A stretch of 64,000 nucleotides of DNA from NCBI RefSeq assembly GCF_000377785.1, contig NZ_KB898732.1, positions 1-64,000 of the forward strand. Direction: 5' to 3'. The DNA comes from Thioalkalivibrio sp. ALJ24 (GTDB lineage Bacteria; Pseudomonadota; Gammaproteobacteria; Ectothiorhodospirales; Ectothiorhodospiraceae). Positions within the stretch are counted from its first letter, which is position 1. Each line of letters starts with the position of its first letter. The position numbers were made by a program, and so were the translations under genes. The notes under the pieces are model-generated. The model made no database searches. It worked only from the letters and a program-made list of their open reading frames with translations, and had not been told where the DNA came from. This document shows positions 6,055 to 45,255 of the stretch, in pieces.

Positions 6055-6164
6055 GTCAGGATTCCAGGCTCCGTCCGGGGACAGGTTAGGGGGCTGCCGC
6101 GTCGCTGCGCGGATCCATTGTGACGGAACTGCATGGCCCCGCGCCACGTGGGGGTGTGGCTCGT

Positions 6165-7340: not shown

Positions 7341-8899
7341 CTCTGGTTCACTTCGGCAAGCCGGTCCAGGACGTCGGGCAGGACCGCCTCTGCATAGTCG
7401 CGCAGCCGCTCCTCCGCGGGATCGGGATCAAAGCCGTACGGCGCATACAGAACGATCAGCGCGGCGTCGTCGCGCTGGCCCAGCAGGCGATTGAGGGCCT
7501 CGCGCGCCTTGACCTCATGCGGCGAGGTCGTCAGGCGGCCATCGACCCAGTACCAGCGCCAGACCACCAGCTGCTGCTGCCCGGGGCCTTCCAGCAGGAA
7601 CCGCTGGGCATCGGGGAACTCGTCGAATGCGGTGCGGCCCCGCCGGGTTTGCGACCAGTCCTCGGCGCGATCGCGACCGGCCAGGGTGTTGGCCCAGCCG
7701 ACCATGCTCCCGTGCCGGGCCTGACCGCGGTAGAACAGCACGTGCGCGCCCACCGGGTCGTTGCCCCCCTCCGGCTGTACGAGGCCGCCGCGTCCGTCCC
7801 TGGCAAACCGGTATCCGGGCGTCCAGGCGAGGTCCTGCTCCTCGGCGGCATGCCAGCCGTCGGGGGCCAGCGGGCCCTCGCCCAGTCCGGTGACCGGCCC
7901 CAGGTCGCGCTGATTCATCCAGGCCGCGTAGAGCGGCGCCGCGCTTGCCAGGGCGCCGGCGAATACCGCGGCGGTCACGAACCGGCGGATCGCGGGGTGC
8001 GTCCGGGCGGCGGGCCGGGCCGGTTTCCGTTGCGTTTGGTCGTCGAGGTGGTCTTCTCGCCAGATCGCTCCAATGAGGAACATCAGGAAGATGATCACGC
8101 CAAAAAACACCCATCCGTACACCAGATGGTCGACACCGGCCGCCAGCCGCATGTCGCTCAGGTGGCCGATCATCACGATGCCGTAGGCGCGCATCCAGTT
8201 GGCGACAATGGGCACCAGGATGGCGACCCCGACGAACGCCACCCGGCGCCAGGGGCTGCGATAGATCAGGAATGCATACAGGGTTCCCACCGCTACCGAG
8301 GCCATCAGGTAGCGGACCCCGGAGCAGGCCTCCACGACCGACCATCTGCCCGTTGGCAGCTCGAAGTTCAGGCCATCGCGATAGATGGGGATGCCCGACC
8401 ACTGCACCGCCGCAACCGTGAAATCGGCGGTCCAGATCATCATGGGTTCGACCATGAATTCGCCGAAGGGGACCGCGAACAGCAGGTAGGCCAGCGGGAA
8501 CTGCAGTCGCCAGGTGATCGCGCTGCCCAGCACCAGCCAGAAGAGCGCGGGAATCATCAGCACCGCCGCGAACTGGCGCACCGAGATCACGTCCACCAGC
8601 TCGCCGGCGACCCAGACCAGCGAAAGCCCCAGCAGCGGCACCATGGCCCACCAGGTCGGCTCCGGTGCCAGGTGCCGGACCTCGTCGCGCTTGAGGTAGA
8701 GCAGAAACAGAACGATCGGGACGATCAGGAAGCCGTGCGCGAAGGTATCGGAGCGCTGCCAGATGGCGACCATGGAGGCGAACGTCGGGTAGTACGCGAC
8801 GCCCAGGATGACCAGGCCCAGCCCGAGTGCGGCGGCTGCCAGCCACCAGCGCATCTGCAGTGCGTCCGGCATGGATTGGGTGCGGGATTCAGAGGCCAT
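7337..8899 (-). CDS. xrtA: Exosortase A fused to an EpsI domain
   Basis: 520-residue integral membrane protein. Residues 20-280 form the eight-helix EpsH/exosortase domain with the three catalytic positions visible: Cys192 in VVEACSGVRY, Arg237 in NWMRAYG and His258 in DHLVYGW. After a charged linker at about 281-305 and one further membrane segment, residues 330-520 form the periplasmic EpsI domain. By analogy with the family, it cleaves PEP-CTERM sorting signals and transfers the substrate protein to a membrane or polysaccharide-linked acceptor. Two possible substrates are in this window (41356 and 51590). The start at 8899 overlaps the upstream glycosyltransferase stop by 11 bp; Met10 is an alternative. 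The fusion of both domains is usual for XrtA. Confidence 0.95.
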   Translation of the reverse strand: MASESRTQSMPDALQMRWWLAAAALGLGLVILGVAYYPTFASMVAIWQRSDTFAHGFLIVPIVLFLLYLKRDEVRHLAPEPTWWAMVPLLGLSLVWVAGELVDVISVRQFAAVLMIPALFWLVLGSAITWRLQFPLAYLLFAVPFGEFMVEPMMIWTADFTVAAVQWSGIPIYRDGLNFELPTGRWSVVEACSGVRYLMASVAVGTLYAFLIYRSPWRRVAFVGVAILVPIVANWMRAYGIVMIGHLSDMRLAAGVDHLVYGWVFFGVIIFLMFLIGAIWREDHLDDQTQRKPARPAARTHPAIRRFVTAAVFAGALASAAPLYAAWMNQRDLGPVTGLGEGPLAPDGWHAAEEQDLAWTPGYRFARDGRGGLVQPEGGNDPVGAHVLFYRGQARHGSMVGWANTLAGRDRAEDWSQTRRGRTAFDEFPDAQRFLLEGPGQQQLVVWRWYWVDGRLTTSPHEVKAREALNRLLGQRDDAALIVLYAPYGFDPDPAEERLRDYAEAVLPDVLDRLAEVNQR

Positions 8900-10142
8900 C
8901 GGCTGACTCCGATACGACGCCCGCGTCGTGCGCGGGGGACAGGGGTTTCGCCTGGAGCATCTCCTCCAGGCGGGACAGGTTGCGCTCCCAGTCATAATCC
9001 CGGAGGACCCTTTCCCGGGCGGCGGCGCCCAGTTCCGGGGTGGGGTCGTGCAGCTCCCCGGAAACCGCCGCGAGGAACGCATCCGGCGTTGCGGGCGCGC
9101 GGATCACCTCGGTGTCCGGCTCGGCCGTCAGTCCCTCGAGGGCCTGGGGGGTGGCGACAACCGGCCGGGCCAGGGCCATCGCCTCCAGCACCTTGTTCTG
9201 TACACCCCGGGCAATCCGTAGCGGTGCCACCGCGAGGCGGGCATGCGCGATCCAGACCCGGATGTCGTCCACGAACCCGGTCACGGTCACCCCGGGGCGC
9301 TCCGCCAGCGCGAGTACCTCCGCGGCCGGTCGACTGCCCACGATGAAGAACTCCACATCCGGACAGGACTCGCGCAGGGAGGGCAGCACGTGATCGGCAA
9401 ACCAGAGCACGGCATCCACGTTCGGCCAGTAGTCCATGGCCCCGGTAAAAACGATGGGCCGGCAACCGTCGGGGTACGGGCTTGCGCCCGCCACGGCCGC
9501 GGGCGAAAAGTAATCGGCGTCGACCCCGTTATTCAGGGCATGTACGCGGCTTGCGACGCCCGGGGCGCGCTCGCGAAAGGCCCGGGCCTCATCGGGCGAG
9601 ACGAACACACTGGCATGCGCGGATTCGGCCATGCGGCGCTCGCTGGCCAGAAGGCGCTGTCCCTCGCGGCGGTAGACGGCGCTCATCGGCCAGTTCCTGG
9701 TTGGGGCGTACTGGGTCCACTTGTCGGAGTCGACGTCGACGAAATCGATGACGCGCGTGAGGTCTCCGCTGGTCGGCAGGTACTGCGCCATCGCGGAGGA
9801 AAAGGCCAGCGCGCGGGAGATGTCGTGGCTTCGAAGGGTGTGGTCAACCCAGCGCTGCAGGGTGCGGTCCCGGTACCAGGGCAGGGTCAGGGGTTCGCCG
9901 GTGATCAGGCCGCTCAGGGCGCGCAGCTGCGCCCGGCGCCGTGGCAGGGGGCGGGCGCAGACGCTGGTGCATATTTCCTCGAGTTCGGCGACGTACGCGT
10001 GATCGGCGGGGTCATCGATGAACGTCCCCAGGTGGACCCGATAGCGCTGCGTCAGGTAGCGGAGGATGTGGTGTGAGCGGATCTTGTCGCCCTTGTTCGG
10101 CGGCCATGGGATCCGGTGGACGAGATAAAGAAGGTCTTCCAT
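8889..10142 (-). CDS. XrtA-associated sugar transferase, Stp1 type
   Basis: 417-residue glycosyltransferase of family TIGR03087. It starts MEDLLYLVHRIPWPPNKGDK, the diagnostic N-terminus of this group, which fixes the start at 10142. Further landmarks are DFVDVDSDKWTQYA, the domain-boundary segment PIVFTGAMDYWPNVDAV and the C-terminal NKVLEAMALARPVVATPQALEG. It is found only in exosortase A loci and is presumed to assemble the exopolysaccharide repeat. It overlaps xrtA downstream and lies 13 bp after the FemAB-like gene, so it is in the same operon. Donor and acceptor are unknown. Confidence 0.93.
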   Translation of the reverse strand: MEDLLYLVHRIPWPPNKGDKIRSHHILRYLTQRYRVHLGTFIDDPADHAYVAELEEICTSVCARPLPRRRAQLRALSGLITGEPLTLPWYRDRTLQRWVDHTLRSHDISRALAFSSAMAQYLPTSGDLTRVIDFVDVDSDKWTQYAPTRNWPMSAVYRREGQRLLASERRMAESAHASVFVSPDEARAFRERAPGVASRVHALNNGVDADYFSPAAVAGASPYPDGCRPIVFTGAMDYWPNVDAVLWFADHVLPSLRESCPDVEFFIVGSRPAAEVLALAERPGVTVTGFVDDIRVWIAHARLAVAPLRIARGVQNKVLEAMALARPVVATPQALEGLTAEPDTEVIRAPATPDAFLAAVSGELHDPTPELGAAARERVLRDYDWERNLSRLEEMLQAKPLSPAHDAGVVSESADGL

Positions 10143-10155
10143 CGCTCTGCACCCG

Positions 10156-11190
10156 TTAGCCAAGTGAACGCGAAAGTTTGGGGCCGAGCCAGTTGGCGAC
10201 CGGCAGCGGCAGCCGCTGCCACGCAGCGATGAAATAGCGGTATTTCGGGTTGAGCGGATTGACGTTGGGGATCTCGCTCGCCCGCACGAGATGGTATTCG
10301 TAGTACAGCGGCTGAGGCTCGAAGCCCCAGTTTTTCTTGAAGCTGAACGAGCCTGTGTCGCGCTTGCTGCGGCCGAAGTCAAACACGCGATAGCCATCCT
10401 CGCAGGCGCGGCGCATCAGCTCCCAGTAGAGGAAATCGTAGCCCGCCACCTGACGTGCCTCGGGCGTGCCGGCACCGTAATAGGGCAGCACCTCGTCGCG
10501 GAAGTAGAAGGTCACCACGCTGGCCACGGGCTGCCCGTCCTGCGCGGCCGTCAGCACCCGGCAGTCGTCCCCGAAGACCTCGATCAGCGTCTCGAAGTAG
10601 CGACGGCTGAAGACGGGGGTGCCCAGACGGCGCACGTTGGCGGCGAAGATCGGATAAAAGCGCTCGATATCCGGCTCGAATTCGCTGGCAAGACCGGCCT
10701 TGATCCCCTTGCGCACCATCCGGCGCTGCTTGCGGGGGATCGCGTTCATGTTGGCCTCGACCTCCGGTTCCAGGGTCTTGCGGAAGGTCACGTACAGGTC
10801 CTTGGTGGGCCTCCCGGGGTGCTGTTGCCGCAGATTGCGATACTCGAGATGGTCCACCTGCAGGTCTTCGGCCAGTTTGCAGGCCGCGTTGTCGAGCGCC
10901 GCACGGGCGGCGGGGGTGTCGGCAAGAATGCCGCCATAAACCCCGAACGGGATGGACATCAGGGCATTGCCGAACAGCCGGGACCGGATGTGCACCAGTG
11001 GCAGCACGCCCTGAATCGTGCCGCCGGCTTCGGCCAGCAGGTAATGCGTGGGGTGCCCGAACGCGCGCTGCATCACGGTACTCCACCCGGCGCGGTGGAA
11101 GAACGTGGCTTCGGGGTGTCCGTCGACGTAGGTGTCCCAGCGTTCATGCGAGTCCCCGTCGAGGACGCGCACCTGCAGTTCGTTTTCCAT
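10156..11190 (-). CDS. FemAB-related protein, PEP-CTERM-system-associated
   Basis: 344-residue GNAT-fold protein of family TIGR03019. Two acetyltransferase-like halves are visible. The second carries GQPVASVVTFYFRDEVLPYY, AGYDFLYWELMRRACEDGYR and FDFGRSKRDTGSFSFKKNWG, the usual C-terminal signature. FemAB proteins transfer amino acids from aminoacyl-tRNA to peptidoglycan precursors. The XrtA-associated branch probably adds an aminoacyl or acyl group to the exopolysaccharide or its lipid carrier, but this has not been shown for the family. The start at 11190 gives MENELQVRVLDG, and the gene is spaced 3 bp from the deacetylase stop. Confidence 0.92.
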   Translation of the reverse strand: MENELQVRVLDGDSHERWDTYVDGHPEATFFHRAGWSTVMQRAFGHPTHYLLAEAGGTIQGVLPLVHIRSRLFGNALMSIPFGVYGGILADTPAARAALDNAACKLAEDLQVDHLEYRNLRQQHPGRPTKDLYVTFRKTLEPEVEANMNAIPRKQRRMVRKGIKAGLASEFEPDIERFYPIFAANVRRLGTPVFSRRYFETLIEVFGDDCRVLTAAQDGQPVASVVTFYFRDEVLPYYGAGTPEARQVAGYDFLYWELMRRACEDGYRVFDFGRSKRDTGSFSFKKNWGFEPQPLYYEYHLVRASEIPNVNPLNPKYRYFIAAWQRLPLPVANWLGPKLSRSLG

Positions 11191-17461: not shown

Positions 17462-18931
17462 TCAACGGAGATGACGCCAGTCCTTCAGTTGTTCGACTAG
17501 CGGCCGAGGGTCCTCGGAGCCGCGGCGCAGGTGTTCTTCCAGGGCCTGCTGGGAGCCGAATCGCTCCGAGGCAAAACGGTGCACCGGTGCCTGCGGCGCG
17601 ACAGTCGGGCGCGACTCGGCGATGCCGGCACCCAGCGGGGGCGGTGTCGGTTCCTCGTGCAGAGGGGGCTGGTCCAGAGGGGGCTGGTCGGTGTCTTCGA
17701 CCCGGCTCGCTGTTTCCCTGGTGTCGAGAAGGCGGCGGATTCCGCGCAGGGCCGAGGCCGAAGTCTCGGGGTGCTCCAGTAACCACTCGACGGTCGTCTC
17801 GGGATCAACCGCCGGTATCCCGAAACGTTCGCGATAATCCGCCTCCAGTGCCTGGATCCATTCGGCGATCCGGCACGGGTCACCGGAATCCGCCACCCGC
17901 TGGAACGATTCGCGCAGATCCGCGAGGGCATCGTCCCCGGGGGGCGGAACGGGCTCGGACTCCGGCTCCCGGGTCTGGAGGATGTCTGCTTCGACATCAT
18001 CATCCGGTGGCTCTTCGGCTTCTTCCCGGGAGACCGCTGCGTCTCCGACCAGCTGTCTCATCCAGAAACGGCTGAGGCTGTGGCCCCTGGCCGGATTGAA
18101 GCTGTCGGTCGCCAGGGAGCGGGCCAGTCGTCGGAAAGGTCGCGCCGACGGATCCTCCTCGCCGAACAGGGCCACCGGGTGCTGCAGGGTCACCGCGGAA
18201 CGCAGGCTTTCGTCTCTCTGGATGAATCCGAGAAACTGGACCCTGCTCTTCAGGTACTTTTCCACGGCCGCGCTGAACCGCTGGAACACGGTTCGCGCCT
18301 CATCGATGCCGCTGACCATGTTCACGACCACCCCGCAGTCGACCTGTTGCCGTCGCAGCAGGAGCTTGAGCAGGGAAAAGGCATCCGTCAGCGAGGTGGG
18401 TTCGGGGGTGATGACCAGCAGGATCCGGTCCCCGGCCGCCAGGAAATCCAGGGTCGTGTCTCCGATGCCGGCTGCGGTATCCACGATCAGATCATCGAAC
18501 CGGCGCTCGATGCGCGCCAGTTCCGTTACCAGGCGTCGCTGGCGTGCCGGCGAAAGCTCCACGAATTCGCGGATCCCGCTGGCGCCCGGAATGATCTTCA
18601 GGCCGTGCGGCCCCTCCAGCAGGATCTCCTCGATCGAGCATTCCTCGGCGAGGACTTCGGCGAGCCCCTTTTCCGGTCGCAAGCCGAGCAGGATGTTCAC
18701 GTTGGCCAGGCCGGTATCGGCATCGAGGACACACACCCGGCGCCCCTGGCGCGCCAGGGTGATGCCGAGGTTCACCGCGATGCTGGACTTGCCCACACCT
18801 CCCTTGCCGCTGGCGACAGGCAGCACGCGCGGACGCGATACGGATTCGCGCCGGTCGGGCGATTCCGTGCCTGCGTTCGCGGCAGGGGCCGGCGTGGGGA
18901 TTCCTGGTTCACGCAACGCTCTGTTTCCCAT
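17462..18931 (-). CDS. MinD/FlhG-like P-loop ATPase with long C-terminal extension
   Basis: About 489 residues from ATG 18931 (a GTG at 18943 would add four). After a short Pro/Ala-rich tail, residues 35-280 are a MinD/ParA-type ATPase: deviant Walker A SGKGGVGKSS, Walker A' LDADTGLANVNILLG, and DDLIVDTAAGIGDTTLDFL. The overall pattern is closest to FlhG/YlxH (ITPEPTSLTDAFSLLK). The remaining 200 residues are acidic and proline-rich with a short tandem DQPPL repeat and no recognised domain. FlhG-like ATPases control the number or placement of polar structures; no flagellar genes are nearby, so a role in positioning the polysaccharide machinery is a guess. It is divergent from the HDOD kinase gene (about 140 bp apart). 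Confidence 0.72.
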   Translation of the reverse strand: MGNRALREPGIPTPAPAANAGTESPDRRESVSRPRVLPVASGKGGVGKSSIAVNLGITLARQGRRVCVLDADTGLANVNILLGLRPEKGLAEVLAEECSIEEILLEGPHGLKIIPGASGIREFVELSPARQRRLVTELARIERRFDDLIVDTAAGIGDTTLDFLAAGDRILLVITPEPTSLTDAFSLLKLLLRRQQVDCGVVVNMVSGIDEARTVFQRFSAAVEKYLKSRVQFLGFIQRDESLRSAVTLQHPVALFGEEDPSARPFRRLARSLATDSFNPARGHSLSRFWMRQLVGDAAVSREEAEEPPDDDVEADILQTREPESEPVPPPGDDALADLRESFQRVADSGDPCRIAEWIQALEADYRERFGIPAVDPETTVEWLLEHPETSASALRGIRRLLDTRETASRVEDTDQPPLDQPPLHEEPTPPPLGAGIAESRPTVAPQAPVHRFASERFGSQQALEEHLRRGSEDPRPLVEQLKDWRHLR

Positions 18932-19083
18932 TACCGGATACACTGGCGCAGGACAATTCCGGGAAGTATAGTAGGAAATCGGGCGCCGAATCGCGACAGA
19001 TTCCGGATGCGGTCTCGCGCGCGCCGCCGGGGGCGCCCGGCCACCATCAGCAGGGGCCGTTATTCAGGGCTCCGGGGAGCGGC

Positions 19084-21189
19084 ATGGTCAGGGTCAGTGC
19101 ATCAACGGAAAGTGTTCCCAGCCTGCCTCAGACGCTGGTGGCGATCCTCGATGCATCGGATCCGGCTGACGCCGATTTCGCGGCTCTGGGACACGCCATC
19201 CTGCAGGACGGTGGGATGGCGACTCGTCTGGTGGCCGCCGCCAATTCGCCGGCCTTCTACCGCAGCTCGCCCTGCCGCACCGTCGATCGCGCCCTGCTCA
19301 CCCTCGGCCTCGATACCGTACGCGACCTGGCCCTGACCGCGGCCATTCAGCAGCTGTTTGGTCAGTACCGACCGCGACATCGGGAGTATCTCCGCGAGAT
19401 CTGGCGACGGGCCTTGACGACCGCCCACATGGGCCAGGTTCTGGCGACCCTCACGCGCTACCCGCGACCGGAGGAGGCCTACCTTGCCGGCCTTCTCGTC
19501 GATCTGGGGCGTTTGATTCGCCTGAGCGAGGACGAGGGGCATTACTGGCCCCTCTTGCAGGGGGCCGGCGATGATCATGAGCTTCTGGAGCTCGAGCGTG
19601 CGCATTATGATCGCAGTCATGCCGAACTGGCTGCGGATCATCTGGAATCCTGGGGTCTGGGAACGTGGATCGCCGACGCAGTCCGCTACCACCTCGCCCC
19701 GGCGGAACAGGTTCGCGATGCCCACCAGCTCGTCAAGCTGGTGAACCTCGCCAGCGCCCTCGGCCCGGTGCCCGGGGGCAGCGAATCATCCGTTACGGAT
19801 GCCGCTCTGGTTGCGGCGCACACCCTGTTTGATCTCAACGAAGGGCTGACCCGCGAACTGCGTGGGCGGATCGACAAGGATGTGGCGCGCATTGCCGGGT
19901 CGCTCGGGATCGAACTCGGCGATGGCCCCGGTCTGGGCGGCGATGAGCACACTGAAGACAGCCTGGAACGCCGGGCCGAGGCCGCTCTGGGCGAGCGCGT
20001 GCGGGATCTCACCGAAATCGATCGCCTGAACGGCGTGCTGGCCCGCAGCGACTCGGTGCAGGCGTGCTCCGATGCCGTCCGGCGTTCCCTGTTTCTGACC
20101 CTGGGGGTGGAGCAGAGTCTGCTCTTTTTGCGCGACGCGGGGGGCGCGAGTCTGTCCGCATGGATGGAGGACGATGAAGCCCCCGAGTTCACCCTGCCCC
20201 TGCTGCCCGGGCGCAGTCTCGTTACCGATACCCTGCTGGACCGTGAAAGCCGGCGCCACGAGCGCACCGCTGACGGGGTGATCCCCGTGGTGGATCAACA
20301 GCTCTTCCGCGTGTGTGGCAGCGAGGTTCTCTGGGCCTTTCCGTTGGTCGACGCGAACGAAGAACCGGTCGGCGTGCTGATTCTGGGGCTGGAGCGGAAC
20401 CAGGCCGACGCCCTGGAGGCCCGTAGCGGCTTTATCCGTGCGCTGTCACGCGAGATCGCCCGCGCGCTGAGTGCCATTCAGCCGGAGCCGCCACGCGCTC
20501 CCGCTCCCGCCACCGAACCCGGCGTTTCCGGCGAGATGATTCGCGAGACGCTGCATGAGGCCGGCACCCCCCTCAGCATCATCCAGAACTACCTGGGTGC
20601 CCTTCGAATGAAGCTCTCGGAAGATCCTGAAGCGCAACACGAGCTCGGTCTGATACGCGAGGAGATCGATCGTGTCGGGCGGATCCTGATGCGTCTGCGT
20701 GACCCCGAATCCGGCGACCGGTCGACCCCGACCGATCTGAATGCCACCGTCCAGCGGGTTGCGCAGGTGTTTGAGGGTTCGCTTGGCGAGGCGCACGACA
20801 TCCGGTTACAGCTCGAGCTGGCCCCGGAGTCGCCGGTCGTCGACGTGCCTCCGGACCACCTGCGTCAAATCCTGACGAATCTGCTGACGAATGCGGTGGA
20901 GGCAATCGAGTCCGGGGGCAGGATCGGGGTCCGGACCATGGTCCCGAACGGGCTTGAGGGCCGCCGTACGGCGCTGCTCAGCATTGAGGACGACGGCCCC
21001 GGGATCCCGGCCGAGGTGCTCGACGCAGGTTTCGAGCCGGTGCCCTCGACCAAGGGCGGAGGCCACGCGGGGGTCGGCCTGAGTATCGTGAAACGCCTGG
21101 CCGATGAAGCGGGAGCCAGGATCGAGGTGCAAAGCAACGAGCAAGGAACGCGTTTCGAGCTCTGGCTACCCTGTACACCCGACACCTGA
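19084..21189 (+). CDS. HDOD-domain sensor histidine kinase
   Basis: 701-residue cytoplasmic protein. Residues about 15-215 form an HDOD domain (LPQTLVAILD, DGGMATRLVAAANSPAF, LGLDTVRDLALTAAI, GLLVDLGRLI). A GAF-like middle segment lies at about 320-460. The kinase core starts near 480 with His491 in the H-box HEAGTPLSIIQNYL. The ATPase domain shows LRQILTNLLTNAVEAI (N-box), IEDDGPGIP (G1) and GHAGVGLSIVKRLADEAG (G2). No membrane segment is visible, so it senses an internal cue. It is followed after 56 bp by a receiver-GGDEF-EAL gene, its probable partner, making a two-component route to cyclic-di-GMP. Confidence 0.9.
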   Translation: MVRVSASTESVPSLPQTLVAILDASDPADADFAALGHAILQDGGMATRLVAAANSPAFYRSSPCRTVDRALLTLGLDTVRDLALTAAIQQLFGQYRPRHREYLREIWRRALTTAHMGQVLATLTRYPRPEEAYLAGLLVDLGRLIRLSEDEGHYWPLLQGAGDDHELLELERAHYDRSHAELAADHLESWGLGTWIADAVRYHLAPAEQVRDAHQLVKLVNLASALGPVPGGSESSVTDAALVAAHTLFDLNEGLTRELRGRIDKDVARIAGSLGIELGDGPGLGGDEHTEDSLERRAEAALGERVRDLTEIDRLNGVLARSDSVQACSDAVRRSLFLTLGVEQSLLFLRDAGGASLSAWMEDDEAPEFTLPLLPGRSLVTDTLLDRESRRHERTADGVIPVVDQQLFRVCGSEVLWAFPLVDANEEPVGVLILGLERNQADALEARSGFIRALSREIARALSAIQPEPPRAPAPATEPGVSGEMIRETLHEAGTPLSIIQNYLGALRMKLSEDPEAQHELGLIREEIDRVGRILMRLRDPESGDRSTPTDLNATVQRVAQVFEGSLGEAHDIRLQLELAPESPVVDVPPDHLRQILTNLLTNAVEAIESGGRIGVRTMVPNGLEGRRTALLSIEDDGPGIPAEVLDAGFEPVPSTKGGGHAGVGLSIVKRLADEAGARIEVQSNEQGTRFELWLPCTPDT

Positions 21190-21245
21190 TCCGACAGGAA
21201 CAGGGTTGACCGAGCAGCCGCACGAGCTGCAGGGAGAATTCCCGA

Positions 21246-23390
21246 ATGAGCGAAGGGGCCACCCGAGACGATTCAGACCGAGCTCGCCGTCTGCTGCTGG
21301 TCGACGACGATCCGGCCCTTCTGCGCAGTCTGGAAAACCTCCTGACGCCGCAGGGTTTCGAGGTGAATACGGCGAACGGCGGAAGGGCTGCGATCGAACG
21401 CCTGCGTGAAACGCACTACGACCTTCTGCTGCTCGATCTGGGCATGCCGGATCTGGGCGGTCGCGAGGTCCTGCGTTTCATGCAGACACACGATCGGGTC
21501 GTGCCGACCGTAGTGATCAGCGGCAACGCTTCAGCGGATGACGTCGCGGGTGCGATACGCGACGGCGCAGACGACTATCTGAAAAAGCCGTACCAGCCCG
21601 AGGAGCTGATCGCGACGGTCCGCAATGTTCTGCACAGGAAGGATCTGGAAGCGGCCAACCGGAACATGCGCCGGCGCCTGGAGCAGTCCGAGCGTCTGCA
21701 CCGGCTGATCGTGAACAACTCTCCGGACATCGTCTTCGTGCTGGACAGCGCCGGACACTTCCGCTTTGTGAATGCACGGGCTCACGAACTGCTGGGTTAC
21801 GCCCGTCAGGATCTGCTGGGGCGCTCCGTCCTCGATCTGGTCGGCGCCGAGGACCGGGACAAGGCGGCCTATTTCTTCAATCAGGCCGGGCACGGCGGGA
21901 CCCATCTGCGCTCGGTGGAACTGGTGTTGAAACCGAAGGAGGGGGGCGACTGGGCCCAGCGTTACTTCGAGGTCGCCGTGTGTCCCACCCCGGTGGAGGG
22001 GGGCGATACGGAGAATCTCATCTACGGCACCGCCCGCGATGTCACGGAGCGCAAGGAATCCGAGGCCTTCATCAATTTCCAGGCCTATCATGATCTGCTC
22101 ACCCGCCTGCCGAACCGGGCCCTCTTCCGTGACCGCGTGGAAGTGGCGATCGCCCATGCCGAACGCTACCAGTCACGCCTGGCGGTGATCTTCATCGACC
22201 TCAACCGGTTCAAGGTCATCAACGACTCCCTCGGGCATACGCTCGGTGACCGCCTGCTGCAGGCCGTGGCCCAGCGCCTGCAGGGCTGTATCCGCGAGAG
22301 CGATACCCTCTGCCGCTTCGGCGGCGACGAGTTCACCCTTCTGCTCCCGGGGATTGCGGACAGTCAGGCTGCGGTCCAGGTCGGCGAGAAGCTTGTGGAG
22401 AGCCTGCAGACGCCGTTTTATCTGGGGGGCGATCAGGAGCTTCACGTGGGCGCCAGCCTCGGGATTGCGGTGTATCCCGAAGGCGGGGATTCGCTGGAGG
22501 CGCTGATCCGGCATGCCGACATCGCGATGTACCGGGAAAAAAGCACCGGCAAGAACGGTGTCTGTCTTTTCGAGCCGGAGATGGAGGGCGCAACGCCCAA
22601 TCGGCTGGAACTCGAGCAGGACCTGCGCAGGGCGCTGGAGCGCGACGAATTCTGCGTGCTGTATCAGCCGCAGGTCAGTGGCGAGGACGGGCGTCTTCTG
22701 GGGGTCGAGGCCCTGGTCCGCTGGAGCCACCCGAAGCGGGGCGAGCTGGGCCCCACGGAGTTCATCCCCCTTGCGGAGGAGACGCGCCTGATTGTCGAAC
22801 TGGATCGGCTTACCCTGCGCCAGGCGATACGCGGTCTCAATAAAGTGAACGGGCAATGCCCGGATTTGCGCCTGTCCGTGAACCTGTCGCCCGCTCTTTT
22901 CGAAGGGGACGGCTTTGTTGATGAGCTGCTGGAGTTCCTTCACAGCGAGGGTTTCCCGGCCGAGAGGCTGGAAATCGAGATCACCGAAAGCCTGTTGCTG
23001 AATGATGCCGAGGACACCATTGCCAAGCTGAATCGCCTCAGCGCTGCCGGTGTCCGGATTGCGGTGGATGACTTCGGGACCGGCTACTCGTCACTCAGCT
23101 ATCTGCAGAAATTCCCGCTGCATACCCTCAAGATTGACCGCAGTTTCGTTCGCGCCGTCTGCAACGACGGGGAGGCCTGCATCGTGAACGCCATTGTTTC
23201 CATGGCGCGCGGCCTGCAGATGGATATCGTGGCGGAAGGGGTCGAAACCACGGCCGAGCGCGATTATCTCCGCCGTCTGGGCTGTCCGGTGCTGCAGGGC
23301 TTCCTGTTCGGGCGGCCCGCGCCGCTGGAGCACGTACTGACCAGCTGCGCCACGCCTGCCCGGTCTGACCGTTTACCCTACGACGCTTGA
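21246..23390 (+). CDS. Response regulator with PAS, GGDEF and EAL domains
   Basis: 714-residue cyclic-di-GMP enzyme. The receiver domain (15-125) has LLVDDDPALL and phospho-acceptor Asp64 in LLLLDLGMPD. A PAS domain follows (about 145-270, IVNNSPDIVFVLDSAGHF). The diguanylate cyclase has an intact GGDEF at 359-363 with an I-site RESD exactly five residues before it, so product inhibition is expected. The phosphodiesterase domain carries EALVRW at 488-493, EITESLLL and DDFGTGYSSLSYLQ, so both activities may be present. The start at 21246 follows a purine-rich ribosome site (AGGGAGAA). It is probably phosphorylated by the HDOD kinase upstream and may adjust polysaccharide output. Confidence 0.93.
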   Translation: MSEGATRDDSDRARRLLLVDDDPALLRSLENLLTPQGFEVNTANGGRAAIERLRETHYDLLLLDLGMPDLGGREVLRFMQTHDRVVPTVVISGNASADDVAGAIRDGADDYLKKPYQPEELIATVRNVLHRKDLEAANRNMRRRLEQSERLHRLIVNNSPDIVFVLDSAGHFRFVNARAHELLGYARQDLLGRSVLDLVGAEDRDKAAYFFNQAGHGGTHLRSVELVLKPKEGGDWAQRYFEVAVCPTPVEGGDTENLIYGTARDVTERKESEAFINFQAYHDLLTRLPNRALFRDRVEVAIAHAERYQSRLAVIFIDLNRFKVINDSLGHTLGDRLLQAVAQRLQGCIRESDTLCRFGGDEFTLLLPGIADSQAAVQVGEKLVESLQTPFYLGGDQELHVGASLGIAVYPEGGDSLEALIRHADIAMYREKSTGKNGVCLFEPEMEGATPNRLELEQDLRRALERDEFCVLYQPQVSGEDGRLLGVEALVRWSHPKRGELGPTEFIPLAEETRLIVELDRLTLRQAIRGLNKVNGQCPDLRLSVNLSPALFEGDGFVDELLEFLHSEGFPAERLEIEITESLLLNDAEDTIAKLNRLSAAGVRIAVDDFGTGYSSLSYLQKFPLHTLKIDRSFVRAVCNDGEACIVNAIVSMARGLQMDIVAEGVETTAERDYLRRLGCPVLQGFLFGRPAPLEHVLTSCATPARSDRLPYDA

Positions 23391-23428: not shown

Positions 23429-23546
23429 TACTTAAACTAGGCGTAAGGATGGCTTGATCCGAGTGTCGTAATATGGCAGGGCCAGACGGGTTGTTCACAC
23501 GTTTCGTCGCGTGAGGAGGCCGTCGATCTTCTGTCGAGACCTGCAT

Positions 23547-24227
23547 ATGTACCAAGACTCTCCGCTTCAGATCTGCCGTGTGCGTTCCGAATCCCTGAAG
23601 CGCATCCACTTTCGGATTCGCTATCAGACGTATTGCGTGAAGAAGAATTATGAACCGCGCGATGCGTATCCGGACGGGCTCGAACGCGACGAGCATGATG
23701 CCTATGCGGAGCATTTTCTGGTGCGCTCCAACGCATGCAGCAAGCCCGGACAGTGGGTCGGGACCATGCGGCTCATCCCGCCGCGGAAGGAACGATCCTC
23801 GACGGCATTGGACGCTTCGACCATCGAGGTGTCCCGGCTGATCGTGAGTGACCCGGAAGCGCGTGGCAGTTCCCGGGTCCTGTATCTTCTGTGCCAGGCA
23901 GCGCAGGCGTACGCCGTGGAGCAGGCTTACACGCATCTCTCGTTTCTGGTTCGACCGGGACTTGCCCGTATTCTCAAACGCCACGGATTGCCCATCGAGC
24001 AGGCCGGCGAGGCCTGCGACCACCGGGGAGTGCGTATTCCGTACCGGATCCACGCCGAAAAGGCGCGTGAAGGACTTGAACGCTGGCGTGCGCGGCTGGG
24101 GTTGCCCGCGTCCGCCAGTTCGTCCGCATTGCACTACACTTCGTGCAGTAGTGCGCATTGTCCGCTCGGCTACTCCGACGGCCATCATCCAGCAGGCAAA
24201 AATCCAGAGGCGGAACTGTCCTTGTAG
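23547..24227 (+). CDS. Exosortase-system-associated acyltransferase (AHL-synthase-like), copy 1
   Basis: 226-residue protein of the PEP-CTERM/exosortase-associated acyltransferase family (TIGR03694), distantly related to LuxI-type N-acyl-homoserine-lactone synthases. The core pattern is visible: RIRYQTYCVKKNYEP, GTMRLIPP, TIEVSRLIVSDPEARG, then LVRPGLARILKRHGLPIEQAGEACDHRGVRIPYRI. The start at 23547 is the first ATG of the conserved part. It lacks the FDRYF-type N-terminal segment found in copy 2 (47028-47801). The family is presumed to make an acylated product from acyl-CoA or acyl-ACP; the product is unknown and it is not a demonstrated quorum-signal synthase. It stands in front of a graveyard of related fragments and a LolA-like gene. 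Confidence 0.85.
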   Translation: MYQDSPLQICRVRSESLKRIHFRIRYQTYCVKKNYEPRDAYPDGLERDEHDAYAEHFLVRSNACSKPGQWVGTMRLIPPRKERSSTALDASTIEVSRLIVSDPEARGSSRVLYLLCQAAQAYAVEQAYTHLSFLVRPGLARILKRHGLPIEQAGEACDHRGVRIPYRIHAEKAREGLERWRARLGLPASASSSALHYTSCSSAHCPLGYSDGHHPAGKNPEAELSL

Positions 24228-24257: not shown

Positions 24258-24502
24258 CGACCATTCGAAGACGAATCCGTAACCAAATCCGCGAGAAGGA
24301 GCATGCCTTCGCGCTGATGGGGCCGGCCCTGACCGGCATCCTGCCCGGAGCGGGGGTGCCTGCCACAGGCGGATGTGGCCATGCCATGACCGGGGCAGCC
24401 CCGGGTCGAAGCACTTCGCGACATGGCCCCGGACTGCTCCATTTTGCCCCCGAGGGCATGAGTTTTGACCGGTATTTCGACCTGCACGAGGTGAACACAT
24501 GA
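24258..24502 (+). pseudogene. Remnants of exosortase-associated acyltransferase genes
   Basis: Two short stretches in one frame resemble acyltransferase copy 2. First, EKEHAFALMGPALTGIL followed by GVPATGGCGHAMTG (from about 24292) aligns with KRHAFAMMEPALARIL and the following conserved segment near the C-terminus of that protein. Second, MSFDRYFDLHEVNT (24458-24499, stop at 24500-24502) aligns with its N-terminus, DSFNRYFSLTEPRT. The order C-terminal piece then N-terminal piece indicates at least two decayed copies in tandem. The second piece overlaps the first bases of the LolA-like gene. The matches are short and read by eye. Confidence 0.5.
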
Positions 24503-25311
24503 TCCGAGCCATCCCGCCGCTCGCTCTCACCGGACTGCTGGCCTTCGGGCTTGCAGCCCCCGTGATGGCCAGCGGGTACTCCGACGGTGAGGCCCTGGCC
24601 GAGGCCATCTACGAACGTCCGGACGGGAATGACGCCGTCACTCGCGGCCAGATGACCCTGACCGGCGAGGGGCGCAGACGCGATCGAGTGCGCGAGAGCT
24701 ACCAATACCGGCTTGACGGCGACGAGGGGGAAAGCTGGAACCTGATCCGTTTCACTTCGCCGAGCAATATTGCGGAAACCGCCCTTCTGGTGCACAACCA
24801 TCCCGGCGGCGATGTGGATCAGTGGCTGTTCCTTCCGGCGGTCCAGCGCGAGCGCCGTATCAGCAGCGAAAACCGTGGCGGAAGTTTCGTTCAGTCCGAG
24901 CTCTACTTCGAAGATCTCGAGGATCGCGAACCGCACAAGGACGACCACCGGATCGTCGGGACCGACACCTTCGAGGATGTTGAAGTGACCCTGCTCGAAA
25001 GTACTCCGGTGGATCCGGACAATTCGGTGTACAGCAAGCGGCTGAGCTGGGTGCACGAAGAGACCCTGATCCCCTTGCGTATGGACCTCTTCGAAGGCGG
25101 GGAGGAGCCGTCCAGGCGCATGGAAGTCCAGGAGATTCAGGAGGTCCAGGGATACTGGACCATCATGCGCAGCACCATGACCGATCTGGAGAGCGGCCGC
25201 CAGACCGTGCTCAATGTCGACGAGGTCGTCTACGACACCGACCTGCCCCGCGACCTCTTTTCCACCCGCAGTCTGTCGGACCCCGAGCGTGCACGCCCCC
25301 ATCGTCCATGA
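24499..25311 (+). CDS. LolA-like outer-membrane lipoprotein-sorting family protein
   Basis: 270-residue exported protein with signal peptide (IPPLALTGLLAFGLAAPVMAS, cleavage around residue 25). The mature part is a LolA/LolB-like half-barrel of the COG2834 type: QMTLTGEGRRRDRVRESYQY, WNLIRFTSPSNIAETALLVHN, the central WLFLPAVQRERRIS and a late YWTIMRSTMTDL. Family members are usually encoded next to an RND/MMPL exporter and an outer-membrane barrel and probably carry a lipid across the periplasm. Here the barrel gene follows with a 23-bp overlap but the exporter is reduced to a 48-bp remnant. Confidence 0.85.
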   Translation: MIRAIPPLALTGLLAFGLAAPVMASGYSDGEALAEAIYERPDGNDAVTRGQMTLTGEGRRRDRVRESYQYRLDGDEGESWNLIRFTSPSNIAETALLVHNHPGGDVDQWLFLPAVQRERRISSENRGGSFVQSELYFEDLEDREPHKDDHRIVGTDTFEDVEVTLLESTPVDPDNSVYSKRLSWVHEETLIPLRMDLFEGGEEPSRRMEVQEIQEVQGYWTIMRSTMTDLESGRQTVLNVDEVVYDTDLPRDLFSTRSLSDPERARPHRP

Positions 25312-27262
25312 GCCGTCCCGGGCCGGAGGCCTGAAACCGTCGGCCGTGGCGCTGGTGGTGGTCTGTGCGTTCGGGGTTGCCGGCACCGCCCATGCAGGTG
25401 AGGCCGACGCCGAGTCCTACACGGTGGGCAGCGAGGACACCCTCTGGAGCATCGCCGAACGTCTGCGGCCCGACTCCGGAACCAGCGTGCAGCAGATGAT
25501 GCTGGCGCTGTTCGAACGCAACCCGCAGGCCTTTGACGGGGCCATGGATCGCATGCGCAGCGGCGCGACGCTGATGGTCCCGGACGCCGAGCAGGTGCAG
25601 AGACATGATGCCAAAGACGCCCGCGATCAGGTCGAAGCGACCGGCCCTGATGTCCGGGTCAATGGTGGCAACGACGGGCATCGCGTGCAGGGCGACGAGA
25701 CTCTGTGGAGCATCGCCAGGCAGCTGCGCCCCAGTGCGGAAGTCCCGATAGACGCGATGGCGCAGGCATTGTTCGAGCACAACCCTCATGCCTTCGATGG
25801 CGCCCGGGACCGCATGCTGGCCGGGGCGTTGCTCCGCATCCCGCCGGAATACGCCTCGGAGGAACGCCGCCAGGCCGACGCGTCCGCGAATGTCCCGGCG
25901 GAAGTCGCACAGGCCGCACAGGATGACGACTCTTCCGTCTCCGGCGAGGAACGGGAATCCCCGCGCGGCTTCACGTTTGGCGAAGAGCAGCCCGATGCGG
26001 ACGACGACGCCGATGAACCGTCCGAATGGGATGTGCGCCTGAGAGACGTCCTGGTTGAGGGCGGCGTCCTCGGCACGTCCGACCGGCCGGTGCACACTAC
26101 CCAGTACGGGCGAGCGATCCTCACTGCCGCGCGGCCGCTGGGTGAAGGCTGGGAACTGCGGCTCGGCGCCCGTGCCGATCTGCAGGCGCAACACGGCAGA
26201 GAAGCGCCCAACGACACCCGGCTACGTGCGGATTACCACGAGAACTACCTGCGCTACCGCGGCGATAACACGCGCCTGACTCTCGGTACCCAGCGCATCC
26301 TGTGGGGGCAGGTGGATGAGATCCCCCCGACGGATCGCCTGAGTACCAGGGACCTGACCCGCTTCGGACTGGACCCCTACGCGGAGCGGCGCAGGGCCAA
26401 CCCCGCGATCCGCGCCGAGTGGTTCCAGGGGCCGTGGCAGGCCGATCTGGTATGGCTGCCCGTTTTCCGGCCGGCCGAGATGCCCGATCGTGACAGTCTG
26501 TGGCATCCAGTGGACCGTAACCGTGGCCGCCTGCTGGGACTGCCGGAGGATCCCGCGCTGGCGCCGGTCATCCGCGAGGCCGGTCTGGATGACGATGTCT
26601 CCGGGGACGGGGGCGGTGGGGTGCGCCTGAGCCGTTCCGGTCGCGGCGCCGATCTGGCTGTCACGGTCCAGCGCGCGCGCCATTCCGAGCCGTACTACCG
26701 GTTCGATGACGAGACGCGCGAGGCCCTCCTTGCGGGAACGCCTCCGCAAGACCCCATGCTGGAGAGTGTCCACCCGCGTACCTGGGTCGTAGGCGGCGAT
26801 GTGGTCTTCGTGGCCGGGGCATGGACCTGGCGGGCGGAGGCTGCCTGGCTGAGCGACGTACCCGTGACGCAGAGCGAGGATCTCCGTCAGACCACGAAAG
26901 AGGGCGTTGACTGGGTGGTGGGTGTTGAGGGGTTCCCCGGGGGCGGAGACTTCCGCATGACCACGCAGCTGGCGGGGCAGCACCTGCTCGACGCGAGCGG
27001 TGTGCTGGACGTGCGTGAAAGTTATTTCCTCACCGGTGAACTGGAAGCCCCGTTCTCGGCGCACGAATGGCGGGCGCGCATGCGTTATTCTCTGGGGCTG
27101 AACCAGCGCGACGCGTACCTGAATCCGGAGATCGCCTGGGTTGCAAACGAGCCCCACGAGCTGTTTGTGGGGGCGCATTGGCTGGACGGCGCCGAGGATA
27201 CGCCCGGCGGTTTTTACCGGGATAACCGCATGCTGGTTCTGGGCTGGCGAGGGGAGTTCTGA
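25289..27262 (+). CDS. FimV-type LysM repeats fused to a DUF1302-like outer-membrane barrel
   Basis: About 657 residues from GTG 25289; an ATG at 25214 would overlap the previous gene by 98 bp and put non-signal sequence in front. From the GTG there is a basic n-region and hydrophobic core SAVALVVVCAFGVAGTAHA. Residues 43-99 and 131-186 are two copies of the FimV core LysM motif (DTLWSIAERLRP and ETLWSIARQLRP, each followed by an LFE.NP.AFDGA.DRM block). An acidic linker follows, and from about 255 a DUF1302-type porin-like barrel (TLGTQRILWGQVDEIPPTDRL, VWLPVFRPAEMPDRDS) ends in GWRGEF with the C-terminal Phe. LysM would bind peptidoglycan, so the protein could fix an outer-membrane channel to the wall. 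Paralogous C-terminal fragment at 45089-45238. Confidence 0.78.
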   Translation: MHAPIVHEPSRAGGLKPSAVALVVVCAFGVAGTAHAGEADAESYTVGSEDTLWSIAERLRPDSGTSVQQMMLALFERNPQAFDGAMDRMRSGATLMVPDAEQVQRHDAKDARDQVEATGPDVRVNGGNDGHRVQGDETLWSIARQLRPSAEVPIDAMAQALFEHNPHAFDGARDRMLAGALLRIPPEYASEERRQADASANVPAEVAQAAQDDDSSVSGEERESPRGFTFGEEQPDADDDADEPSEWDVRLRDVLVEGGVLGTSDRPVHTTQYGRAILTAARPLGEGWELRLGARADLQAQHGREAPNDTRLRADYHENYLRYRGDNTRLTLGTQRILWGQVDEIPPTDRLSTRDLTRFGLDPYAERRRANPAIRAEWFQGPWQADLVWLPVFRPAEMPDRDSLWHPVDRNRGRLLGLPEDPALAPVIREAGLDDDVSGDGGGGVRLSRSGRGADLAVTVQRARHSEPYYRFDDETREALLAGTPPQDPMLESVHPRTWVVGGDVVFVAGAWTWRAEAAWLSDVPVTQSEDLRQTTKEGVDWVVGVEGFPGGGDFRMTTQLAGQHLLDASGVLDVRESYFLTGELEAPFSAHEWRARMRYSLGLNQRDAYLNPEIAWVANEPHELFVGAHWLDGAEDTPGGFYRDNRMLVLGWRGEF

Positions 27263-42496: not shown

Positions 42497-42736
42497 TCAA
42501 GGCAGGTTATAACGACCTGGCGCAATGAGGTTATCCGGATCAAGTTCATTCTTGAGTTGCCGGATCTTCTGCCAGTAGCCATCGCCCGGATCCACGATCC
42601 GGCGCATCATGTCGCTTCGTGCTCGGTAGGGCGAGAGGCGCTCTCCCATGACATCGTCCAGCAGTGCGTCGGCACAGGCATGCGCCCGCTCCACCTCATC
42701 GGCGTGAGCCCGGTCAAACAAGAGTCGGCGGCAACC
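42497..42736 (-). pseudogene. C-terminal fragment of a FAD-linked oxidase
   Basis: In one frame the minus strand reads RRLLFDRAHADEVERAHACAD and on to PYRARSDMM, LKNELDPDNLIAPGRYNLP and a stop. This is clearly paralogous to the last 80 residues of the intact oxidase at 45256-46797 (NLLFDRTNAEEVERAHACAD, PYRARADMM, DPDNIIAPGRYSPL). DNA identity is well below that of a recent duplicate, so this is the tail of an older second copy whose first 430 residues are gone. It lies immediately downstream of the MMPL gene. Confidence 0.8.
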
Positions 42737-42806
42737 TTCGACGCAATGCGCAACAGCTTGTCCACCGTTTTGGGCAAGGTCGGCTTTTTGTGATCTCGGA
42801 TGCCCG

Positions 42807-45089
42807 TCAATTCTGCGCTTGTGTGAGTCTCGCGCGGAACCAAGCCATCCGAAGGCGATCCCAGACAACAAACATCGCGGGCAGCACCAGGAGGTCGAAG
42901 ACCAGGGCGACCACCAGGCCAAAGGCGGTCAGCCACCCGAATGCGGCTGTCGGGTGGAAATCCGACAGCGTCAGCAGTAAAAACTGGCCGACCAGCACAA
43001 GGGTGGTCGCGGTGACGGCACGCCCGGTACGCCTAAAGGTCCGCGCCAATGCCCAGGTCACCGGGCTACCCGCCCGACGGCGGCGCAGATAGTCGTGCAG
43101 GATGTGGATGGTGTCATCCACGGCGATGCCGATCGCGACACTCGCGATCATGGCGGTTGCCATGTCCAGCCAGATGCCGAGCACGCCCATCATGGCGAAG
43201 ATCATCGCCACCGGCGCCACGTTCGGGATAATGCTCAGGGCGGCGACCGGGACCGAACGCCACATCAGCAGCATCAGCACGGACAAGAGCGCTACTACAA
43301 CCAGCAGGCTGTGGAGCTGGCCCTGAATCAGCAACCGTTCCTGGTCGGCGAAGAGTCGCCCCATCCCCGCGATATCCCACTTCAGGTCGGCGGGGGGCTC
43401 CGCCCGCAGGTGCTCCCTCAGGTCGGCCATCAGGGCATTGAGCTCGGCTGCGCCGGTGACGTTCAGGTTGAGTAGCAATCGACTGCGGCTGAAATCCCGA
43501 TCCACGACGTCCCACAGATCCTGCCCGTCATAGATGAACAGGTATTGCGCGATCAGCGGCTCGCTGTCGGGCAAGGTTCGGTAATCCGGATCCTCCTCGT
43601 TGAAGGCCCAGTGCATCTCCGCGACCAGGTCGGGCAACGAAAGGCTGTGGTCCACCTCGGGCCGGGAATCGGCCCAGTCCTGCACCGCGTGGATCGCCTG
43701 CAGCCGCTCGGGGGCCGTCAGGCTGTCCCAGTCGGGGCCGTCAAAGACCACCTCCATGGCCATCACGCCGGCGAGGTGCGACTCGACCTGCCGGGTGGCC
43801 TGGATGATCTCGTGCTTTTCGTCGAAGAAGGCGTAAAGATCGGTTTCCACTTCGACGTGGCGGATCTGCGGGATGGCCAGGGCGAACAGCAGCACCGCCG
43901 CGGCGACCACCCACCCTGCCCGGCGCATCGCCAGGTGGGCGGAGAACCGCAGGGCCCGGTCCAGTTGCCGCATGCCACGGCGCTGGCCCGTCCACGGCCC
44001 GCGGTCGTAGTGGGCCAGGAGCGTCGGCAACAACACCAGTACACAGACCGCTGCGAGCAGGACGCCGACTGCGGACACCTGACCAAATGTCTCGATGGGG
44101 CGGATCGGGCTGACGCTCAGCGAGGCAAGGCCGGCTGCGGTCGTCAGGGCCATGAACAGGGTGGGGCGCGCCACTGCCTGCAGCGCGGCCTCCACTCGGG
44201 CACGCCCGTGGCAACCGCGTTGTGCGGCGTGCAGGACGGCATTGAAGAAATGCATCATCATCGCCACCGTCAGCGCGGTCAGCAGCGGCGGCATGATCGC
44301 GGTGACCAGGGTAAACGGCTTGCCGGTGAGCACCAGCAGGGCCAGGGCGGAACCGGTCACGGCACTGATGGTGGCGGCCGCCAGACCCACGACCAGCCAG
44401 CGGCGGAACAGCCACCACAGCAGCAACAAGCCAATACCCATGGTGCCCGGCACCAGCAGGGCGAGATCGCCGATCATCGCGCGCAGTTGGGCTACGTCCA
44501 GGGCCACGTGCCCGGCCACGGCGGTCAGTTCGCCTTCCAGTCCGTGGTCCGCGATGGAGTGGCGGAGGAGGCGTTCCAGCTCCAGGCGCTGCAGGCTGTC
44601 TTCCAGCACATGAGGGCGCACCACCAGCGCGGTGGCGTCTCCGGTCTCGGAGACGATGAGCCCCGGGGCGAAGGTATCGCCCAGGGCCCGCTCCCGCCAG
44701 CCCGAGGCGTCCAGCCGCTTGAGGTCGCCGGCGTCGACCAGCGGCTCCACCGCAAAACCGTCGTGCGTGGCGCGGATATGGTCCGTGCTGGTCAGGCCCA
44801 GCACCCGCTCCACTCGATCGTCACCCTCCAGGGCCTCGGTCAGCGCGTTGAGCCGGGTCAGAAAGTCGGCCTCGAAGACCTGCTCGCCCTCGAACAAGGC
44901 CACCAGCACCTCGTCCTGAGGGAAGGTCTCGCGCAGTTCGTTCTCCAGCAAGACCGCCGGAGCATCCTCGGGTACATAGGTCTCGGGGGCGTTGTCCAGG
45001 TTGATCTGGAGCAGTACGGGCCCGGGAAGCAGGATCAGGAGCGCAAGAAGCGCCAGGGCAAGCCGCGGATGCCGCAGCATCCAGCGCAT
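42807..45089 (-). CDS. RND-superfamily (MMPL-type) exporter
   Basis: 760-residue inner-membrane protein of the COG1033 type. The first helix is LALALLALLILLPGPVLL. A periplasmic domain follows to about 210, then five helices (LLLLWWLFRRWLVVGLAAA through ALTTAAGLASLS), a second periplasmic domain, and the repeated helix block beginning LLVVVALLSVLMLL with the conserved GIAVDDTIHILHDYLRRRR. Two-fold internal symmetry is obvious. Such exporters move lipids or acylated small molecules to the periplasm, usually with a LolA-like carrier and an outer-membrane barrel. The start codon overlaps the stop of the barrel remnant (TGATG), showing the ancestral operon order. Confidence 0.9.
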   Translation of the reverse strand: MRWMLRHPRLALALLALLILLPGPVLLQINLDNAPETYVPEDAPAVLLENELRETFPQDEVLVALFEGEQVFEADFLTRLNALTEALEGDDRVERVLGLTSTDHIRATHDGFAVEPLVDAGDLKRLDASGWRERALGDTFAPGLIVSETGDATALVVRPHVLEDSLQRLELERLLRHSIADHGLEGELTAVAGHVALDVAQLRAMIGDLALLVPGTMGIGLLLLWWLFRRWLVVGLAAATISAVTGSALALLVLTGKPFTLVTAIMPPLLTALTVAMMMHFFNAVLHAAQRGCHGRARVEAALQAVARPTLFMALTTAAGLASLSVSPIRPIETFGQVSAVGVLLAAVCVLVLLPTLLAHYDRGPWTGQRRGMRQLDRALRFSAHLAMRRAGWVVAAAVLLFALAIPQIRHVEVETDLYAFFDEKHEIIQATRQVESHLAGVMAMEVVFDGPDWDSLTAPERLQAIHAVQDWADSRPEVDHSLSLPDLVAEMHWAFNEEDPDYRTLPDSEPLIAQYLFIYDGQDLWDVVDRDFSRSRLLLNLNVTGAAELNALMADLREHLRAEPPADLKWDIAGMGRLFADQERLLIQGQLHSLLVVVALLSVLMLLMWRSVPVAALSIIPNVAPVAMIFAMMGVLGIWLDMATAMIASVAIGIAVDDTIHILHDYLRRRRAGSPVTWALARTFRRTGRAVTATTLVLVGQFLLLTLSDFHPTAAFGWLTAFGLVVALVFDLLVLPAMFVVWDRLRMAWFRARLTQAQN

Positions 45090-45238: not shown

Positions 45239-45255
45239 CACGGGTGGTCTCTGGC

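Follow-up and report, generated by a model that had tools for sequence, protein, structure and literature searches.

Tandem FimV-type LysM units before a predicted outer-membrane barrel in Thioalkalivibrio: a candidate wall-anchored exporter component

We examined a gene at positions 25289 to 27262 (+) of the first 64,000 nucleotides of contig NZ_KB898732.1 from Thioalkalivibrio sp. ALJ24 (assembly GCF_000377785.1), a stretch hereafter called the window. The encoded protein starts with a signal peptide, followed by two LysM units of the FimV-core type, a disordered acidic linker and, at the C-terminus, a barrel. In other genera, orthologous barrels have an unrelated module, SPOR, at the place of the LysM units, and the neighbouring genes in relatives encode a LolA-like carrier and an MMPL-type pump. 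We consider it reasonably probable that the window protein is the peptidoglycan-anchored outer-membrane component of a LolA/MMPL trans-envelope exporter.

Architecture of the window protein

The gene is a single open frame of 657 codons from a GTG codon. We take the GTG at 25289 as the start because genus orthologues have GTG or TTG at the equivalent place and because it overlaps the stop of the upstream LolA-like gene by 23 bases. Compared with the orthologue in G022 (genomes are given by our own handles, the window genome being G000), there are 0.18, 0.17 and 0.50 substitutions per site at codon positions 1, 2 and 3, respectively. The values at positions 1 and 2 are 0.19 and 0.14 for the first LysM unit, 0.25 and 0.21 for the second, 0.38 and 0.44 for the linker, and 0.13 and 0.10 for the barrel, which is the best conserved part, with both LysM units better conserved than the linker. 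Since most changes fall at codon position 3 and conservation is higher in the LysM units than in the linker, the LysM-LysM-barrel frame is a real gene under selection. A chance reading frame or an error in gene boundaries is ruled out by the genus orthologues and by this substitution pattern. The gene and its parts are as follows:

25289 to 27262, +: LysM-LysM-barrel gene, 657 amino acids, GTG start (open frame, Pfam and NCBIfam profiles, AlphaFold2 model)
25289 to 25396, +: signal peptide, residues 1-36 (hydrophobic stretch ending AHA, read from the sequence; helix at residues 16-28 of the model)
25415 to 25585, +: FimV-type LysM unit 1, residues 43-99 (Pfam LysM, TIGR03505, unit comparison, model)
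25679 to 25846, +: FimV-type LysM unit 2, residues 131-186 (TIGR03505, unit comparison, model)
25856 to 26023, +: acidic disordered linker, residues 190-245 (18 acidic of 56 residues; predicted local distance difference test score (pLDDT) below 50 over residues 192-243)
26024 to 27259, +: DUF1302/OprD-like barrel, residues 246-657 (DUF1302 scores of orthologues, AlphaFold2 model, structural matches)

The NCBIfam model FimV_core (TIGR03505) matches the window protein with 128.6 bits (cut-off 43.45) over two stretches that each pass alone, and Pfam LysM matches it with 34 bits (cut-off 20.9), one stretch passing alone. The two units share 50% identity. A first-pass annotation, made from the letters of the window, had placed a duplicated FimV-core LysM at residues 43-99 and 131-186, followed by an acidic linker. 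The profile searches agree with it on the family, the duplication and the residue ranges, and the linker contains 18 Asp and Glu against 4 Lys and Arg in its 56 residues. An AlphaFold2 model of residues 37-192 has two LysM-like units. Foldseek alone returned nothing at E <= 0.001 with this LysM-only model, and a second structural aligner matched it to LysM domains (4uz2, Z 6.3; 4uz3, Z 6.1) with phage or injection-baseplate chains scoring above them (Z 7.0-7.9). Because the structural searches rank LysM below baseplate chains or return nothing, the LysM identity of the N-terminal units rests mainly on sequence profiles.

The full-length AlphaFold2 model, built from a 23-sequence alignment, has a mean pLDDT of 82.1, with values mostly of 80-94 in the LysM units, below 50 in the linker and ~90 in the barrel, which spans residues 247-656. 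The modelled barrel has ~18 strands by our count and closes the protein, whose last residue is Phe. With the whole model, Foldseek alone placed general porins on top (OmpF, TMt ~0.55). The second aligner ranked OprD/Occ channels first (OccK7, Z 21.7, root-mean-square deviation 3.6, 299 aligned), and AlgE (Z 20.3) and Wzi (Z 19.5) also matched the barrel model. The C-terminal part is thus modelled as a barrel, as the first-pass annotation had anticipated, with OprD/Occ and AlgE as the nearest solved folds. That annotation had further described a DUF1302-like barrel ending in Phe; the barrel and the Phe stand, and the family name needs a qualification, as Pfam DUF1302 (PF06980) gives no match to the window protein itself at E <= 1. 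Four orthologues score above the 23.2-bit cut-off of DUF1302 (G046 with 31.0, G182 with 25.9, G293 with 26.7 and G097 with 24.9), and because of these 'DUF1302-like' seems a fair name for the barrel. A phmmer comparison of the window protein with PDB sequences gave no match up to E = 1. In the orthologue from Thioalkalivibrio sp. AKL19 (locus L015), a long Ser-Ala repeat lengthens the linker that joins LysM and barrel, as would suit a flexible spacer.

Exchange of front modules among orthologous barrels

Orthologues were surveyed with a profile of the barrel. Strong orthologues were identified in 13 of 47 genomes of the order, nine of these being among the 30 genomes of the genus. A class sample of 369 genomes gave 14 with a strong orthologue at E <= 1e-30; at E <= 1e-10 it gave 33, the other 19 containing remote barrels. 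The phylum sample gave a strong match in two of 398 genomes, neither of them new. The centre genome alone matched in the orders of G091 (1/1), G393 (1/23) and G159 (1/40), and two of three genomes matched in the family of G182. The union of these searches is 24 genomes with a strong orthologue, including the window genome. Five loci in Thioalkalivibrio genomes are 61-73% identical to the window protein.

The module in front of the barrel is a FimV-type LysM in eight of the 24 orthologues, SPOR by Pfam in seven and SPOR-like but unproven in three, and none was recognised in six. All eight LysM bearers belong to Thioalkalivibrio, so that the architecture first noticed in the window recurs in seven further genomes of the genus. 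Two units are present in G000, G022, G024, G021 and G004 (FimV_core 85-129 bits, two stretches each) and one in G009 (34.7 bits), G011 (34.2) and G002 (41.5), these three scores all lying under the FimV_core cut-off of 43.45. SPOR exceeds the Pfam cut-off in G036, G091 and G182 (three stretches each), G097 and G293 (two each), G046 and G093. Of the unproven cases, G102 is SPOR-like by eye and is reported by neither the Pfam nor our local SPOR profile, and G226 has no Pfam SPOR match, reaching E 0.0085 with the local profile only. In G393 the SPOR-like stretch (locus L099, G393:C38, about bases 500-1000) is in a different frame from the barrel, which is either an assembly frameshift or a decaying gene. 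Three more remote barrels (G117, G241 and G344, from one family) also have SPOR by Pfam and lie in XrtA loci. DUF1302 proteins and OprD/Occ channels share the barrel fold with the window protein. As a control, 30 DUF1302-protein loci from the class sample, each with 1500 bases of flank, were searched with local profiles and none had a SPOR or FimV-type LysM match at E <= 0.01, although the local SPOR profile missed G102 and weak modules may therefore escape it. This barrel family thus has several putative anchors, of which the FimV-type LysM is one.

FimV has a peptidoglycan-binding LysM that the pilus machine requires for its polar placement, and AMIN, SPOR and LysM motifs are described as targeting denuded peptidoglycan (PMC5285504). 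Binding of SPOR to denuded glycans has been demonstrated (PMC6895207). Our main argument that the module's job would be to hold the wall is that two unrelated modules with overlapping targets stand at the same place on orthologous barrels. The proposal of the first-pass annotation, a channel that holds peptidoglycan directly, gains support from the SPOR modules at this place in other genera.

A barrel tree was built from 23 of the 24 orthologues, leaving out G093, which is cut by a contig end, and labelling G102, G226 and G393 as SPOR. All LysM bearers together with the module-less G007 form one clade (100/100). Two long branches (G046 and G142) meet in this tree and its deep forks are open. 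The LysM label has to change twice on this tree, consistent with a single gain and a single loss of LysM. In a tree of individual LysM units (59 columns), the 13 units from barrel proteins form one group against 15 FimV units, with 97/96 support and in 96% of bootstrap trees; five of 20 FimV loci (L026, L032, L035, L036 and L038) were dropped as their unit start was not found by pattern. The LysM units of the barrel proteins have a common origin. Within the limits of a short alignment, the simplest account would be a single capture of a FimV-type LysM, followed by tandem duplication and later losses. The spread of SPOR over several families suggests that SPOR preceded LysM on the barrel, which the open deep forks leave unproved.

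FimV and HubP are inner-membrane hub proteins in which the LysM is followed by an inner-membrane helix and a cytoplasmic region. The LysM units of the window protein match the FimV core model, but a linker and a barrel follow them instead. In OmpM, the wall-binding part is an SLH domain. An SLH-type porin was rejected for the window protein, which has no SLH family among its Pfam matches up to E = 1. OmpM of diderm Firmicutes resembles the protein described here in having a wall-binding periplasmic region on a porin, and so in being tether and channel at once; its abstract describes a periplasmic stalk, and its partners differ from those in the window (PMC10628300). The first-pass annotation considered a duplicated FimV LysM core before an outer-membrane channel unusual. 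A LysM in front of a barrel has a precedent, in that intimin and YeeJ also have an N-terminal LysM between signal peptide and outer-membrane barrel, and this LysM was shown to bind peptidoglycan (PMC5595812). Their 12-stranded barrel precedes a passenger, whereas the window protein has ~18 strands, a terminal barrel, no passenger and a LysM that is FimV-type and doubled. An inverse autotransporter is ruled out by the strand number in the model and by the barrel ending at the last residue. We found no open-licence paper joining a LysM or SPOR domain with DUF1302 in such a protein, one co-mention of LysM and DUF1302 in a table being unrelated. A LysM before a barrel and a wall-binding region on a porin are known; the present case differs in the FimV-type tandem LysM, the passenger-less OprD-like barrel, the LolA/MMPL partners and the exchange with SPOR.

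Wall-binding modules recognised by profile before 15 of the 24 barrels (eight LysM, seven SPOR), and the precedent of OmpM (PMC10628300), could also be explained by a general envelope tether, whose main role would be to fasten the outer membrane to peptidoglycan in the manner of OmpM or OmpA, the barrel being a mere membrane plug. We think this improbable: presence in nine of 30 genomes of the genus is oddly patchy for a general tether, the linkage to LolA-like and MMPL genes is constant, and members without an anchor keep the same neighbours.

Gene neighbourhood and the proposed exporter

The genes of the window that bear on the function of the barrel are the following:

24499 to 25311, +: LolA-like periplasmic carrier, overlapping the barrel gene (PF17131, 186.9 bits; DUF1329, 39.3)
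42807 to 45089, -: MMPL/HAE3-type RND transporter, adjoining the barrel gene in relatives (MMPL profile match; neighbour comparison)
23511 to 24227, +: exosortase-associated-type acyltransferase (TIGR03694, 110.1 bits against a cut-off of 111.95)
47028 to 47801, -: second exosortase-associated acyltransferase (TIGR03694, 203.8 bits)

The LolA-like gene is directly upstream of the barrel gene in 22 of the 24 genomes; it was not found in G226 or in G393, whose contig begins 729 bases ahead of the barrel frame. The MMPL gene is directly downstream in 18 genomes, divergent beyond the LolA-like gene in three (G035, G405 and G406) and out of view in G093 and G226, where the contig ends. Homologues of the exosortase-type acyltransferases are present in the fetched stretch of 19 genomes and XrtA-locus markers in that of 18 (G046 being counted on a weak TPR match), and the window holds a full XrtA/PEP-CTERM gene set. 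The usual position of the barrel gene in relatives is thus between the LolA-like and MMPL genes, within an XrtA/PEP-CTERM exopolysaccharide locus. Gene order indicates that the barrel is no lone porin: it is part of a transporter set, with LolA-like and MMPL members, that is encoded in XrtA loci.

A comparable set, AmeABCD, has been described in Castellaniella defragrans, comprising AmeA (a DUF1302 outer-membrane protein), AmeB (LolA superfamily/DUF1329), AmeC and AmeD (an HAE3 RND protein); its deletion lowered monoterpene tolerance and raised dye accumulation, and it is an exporter of hydrophobic compounds (PMC6394551). In both systems a DUF1302-type barrel, a LolA-superfamily protein and an RND pump (HAE3 in AmeABCD, MMPL and probably HAE3-type here) are encoded together, the first two side by side in 22 of our 24 genomes. 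Because the same three kinds of part are present, we suggest that the set containing the window protein exports a hydrophobic or acylated product. The two systems differ in that AmeA is presented as a signal peptide plus DUF1302, with a wall-binding module unmentioned (PMC6394551), and in that the set described here sits in XrtA loci with acyltransferases.

In the proposed exporter, an MMPL/HAE3-type RND pump in the inner membrane would extract the hydrophobic or acylated product, the LolA-like protein would ferry it as a soluble carrier in the periplasm, and the OprD-like barrel would move it into or through the outer membrane. The FimV-type LysM units (SPOR elsewhere) would fasten the periplasmic face of the barrel to peptidoglycan, with a preference for the peptide-poor glycan of poles or septa, sites at which pump and carrier could encounter the barrel. 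We propose that the wall modules hold the barrel because no closed-conduit adaptor was recognised next to the barrel, LolA-like and MMPL genes. The exosortase-associated acyltransferases encoded nearby probably supply the substrate, an acylated product.

Several points weigh against this exporter. The window protein lacks a DUF1302 match of its own, the MMPL gene of the window lies 15.5 kb from the barrel gene, and the best NCBIfam model for the MMPL protein, HAE3 (TIGR00921), scores 165.6 bits against a cut-off of 351.9. The likeness to AmeABCD covers the kinds of AmeA, AmeB and AmeD, that is, three of four components. The OprD/Occ channels nearest in fold are mostly uptake channels. Wall anchoring appears to be dispensable to the barrel, because no anchor was recognised in six of the 24 orthologues (G007, G035, G405, G406, G142 and G159), one of which, G007, sits inside the LysM clade. 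For every member of the family, peptidoglycan binding, position, direction of transport and substrate are predictions from computation.

The XrtA locus, which includes a polysaccharide deacetylase, and the matches to AlgE and Wzi (Z ~20) raise another explanation: LysM, which binds GlcNAc-containing glycans, and SPOR might bind the XrtA exopolysaccharide or another periplasmic amino-sugar glycan, and the barrel might aid its export or attachment in the manner of AlgE or Wzi. This is unlikely, in our judgement, as the locus has its own Wza-type export protein, the LolA-like and MMPL partners point to a lipid, and SPOR is known for denuded peptidoglycan (PMC6895207). Import of a hydrophobic or aromatic substrate, as by some OprD/Occ channels for small acids, with the MMPL and LolA-like genes serving otherwise, would agree with OprD/Occ as the best structural matches but is very unlikely given the neighbours in the stretches read, which are biosynthetic acyltransferase genes and the export-type LolA-like and MMPL genes rather than catabolic ones.

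A broader version of the exporter hypothesis is tentative, and we would sooner doubt it than accept it: the family as a whole may set its outer-membrane exit at poles or septa through exchangeable glycan-reading modules, SPOR in several lineages and a captured FimV LysM tandem in one genus, with the anchor replacing the missing adaptor and fixing the distance and position of the barrel for hand-over by the carrier. It is an open question by what route MMPL/HAE3-type pumps move lipids through the Gram-negative periplasm when there is no closed conduit; in the set described here, the predicted outer-membrane exit has a putative wall anchor of its own. Natural orthologues with two LysM units, one, none, or SPOR provide a comparative series for whether wall anchoring sets the place or the efficiency of export, and the association links the XrtA/PEP-CTERM exopolysaccharide system with a so far unexplained set of transporter genes.

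Locus L131 (G117, positions 4738-10562) contains a SPOR-DUF1302 barrel in an XrtA locus, with the LolA-like gene beside two MacB/FtsX-type permease genes. This stretch yielded no MMPL homologue and possibly encodes the same design with an ABC-type pump.

The rearranged locus in the window and further observations

One more feature of the window is related to the barrel gene:

45092 to 45259, -: 3' remnant of a second barrel gene, immediately preceding the MMPL gene (52% over 56 residues)

This remnant matches all genus orthologues at 56-64% over 43-47 residues. Within 42497-46806 (-), the MMPL gene and the remnant are flanked by a gene for an FAD-linked oxidase (45256-46806) and by a fragment at ~42497-42922 that resembles the C-terminus of this oxidase (80% over 64 bases), as if left by recombination or duplication. 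The locus of the window copy is rearranged, and this strain may be about to lose the system or to pair its parts anew.

Between the XrtA polysaccharide genes and the barrel gene, the window encodes an HDOD-histidine kinase fusion beside a PAS/GGDEF/EAL response regulator (19084-23390, +). A MinD-like ATPase of 493 amino acids with a long C-terminal extension is encoded inside the XrtA locus (17462-18943, -). In locus L009, a ThiF-type gene (E1-like, PRK08223; 4301-5203, +; 300 amino acids) lies between the acyltransferase genes and the LolA-like gene; frames of similar length occur at the same place in other loci of the genus, and the window has none there. The window genome also encodes a second, short FimV-core protein (locus L004, G000:C5:251637-251930, in a 455-codon frame), which has a coiled-coil-like stretch, a hydrophobic segment and a long Glu-Pro repeat tail.

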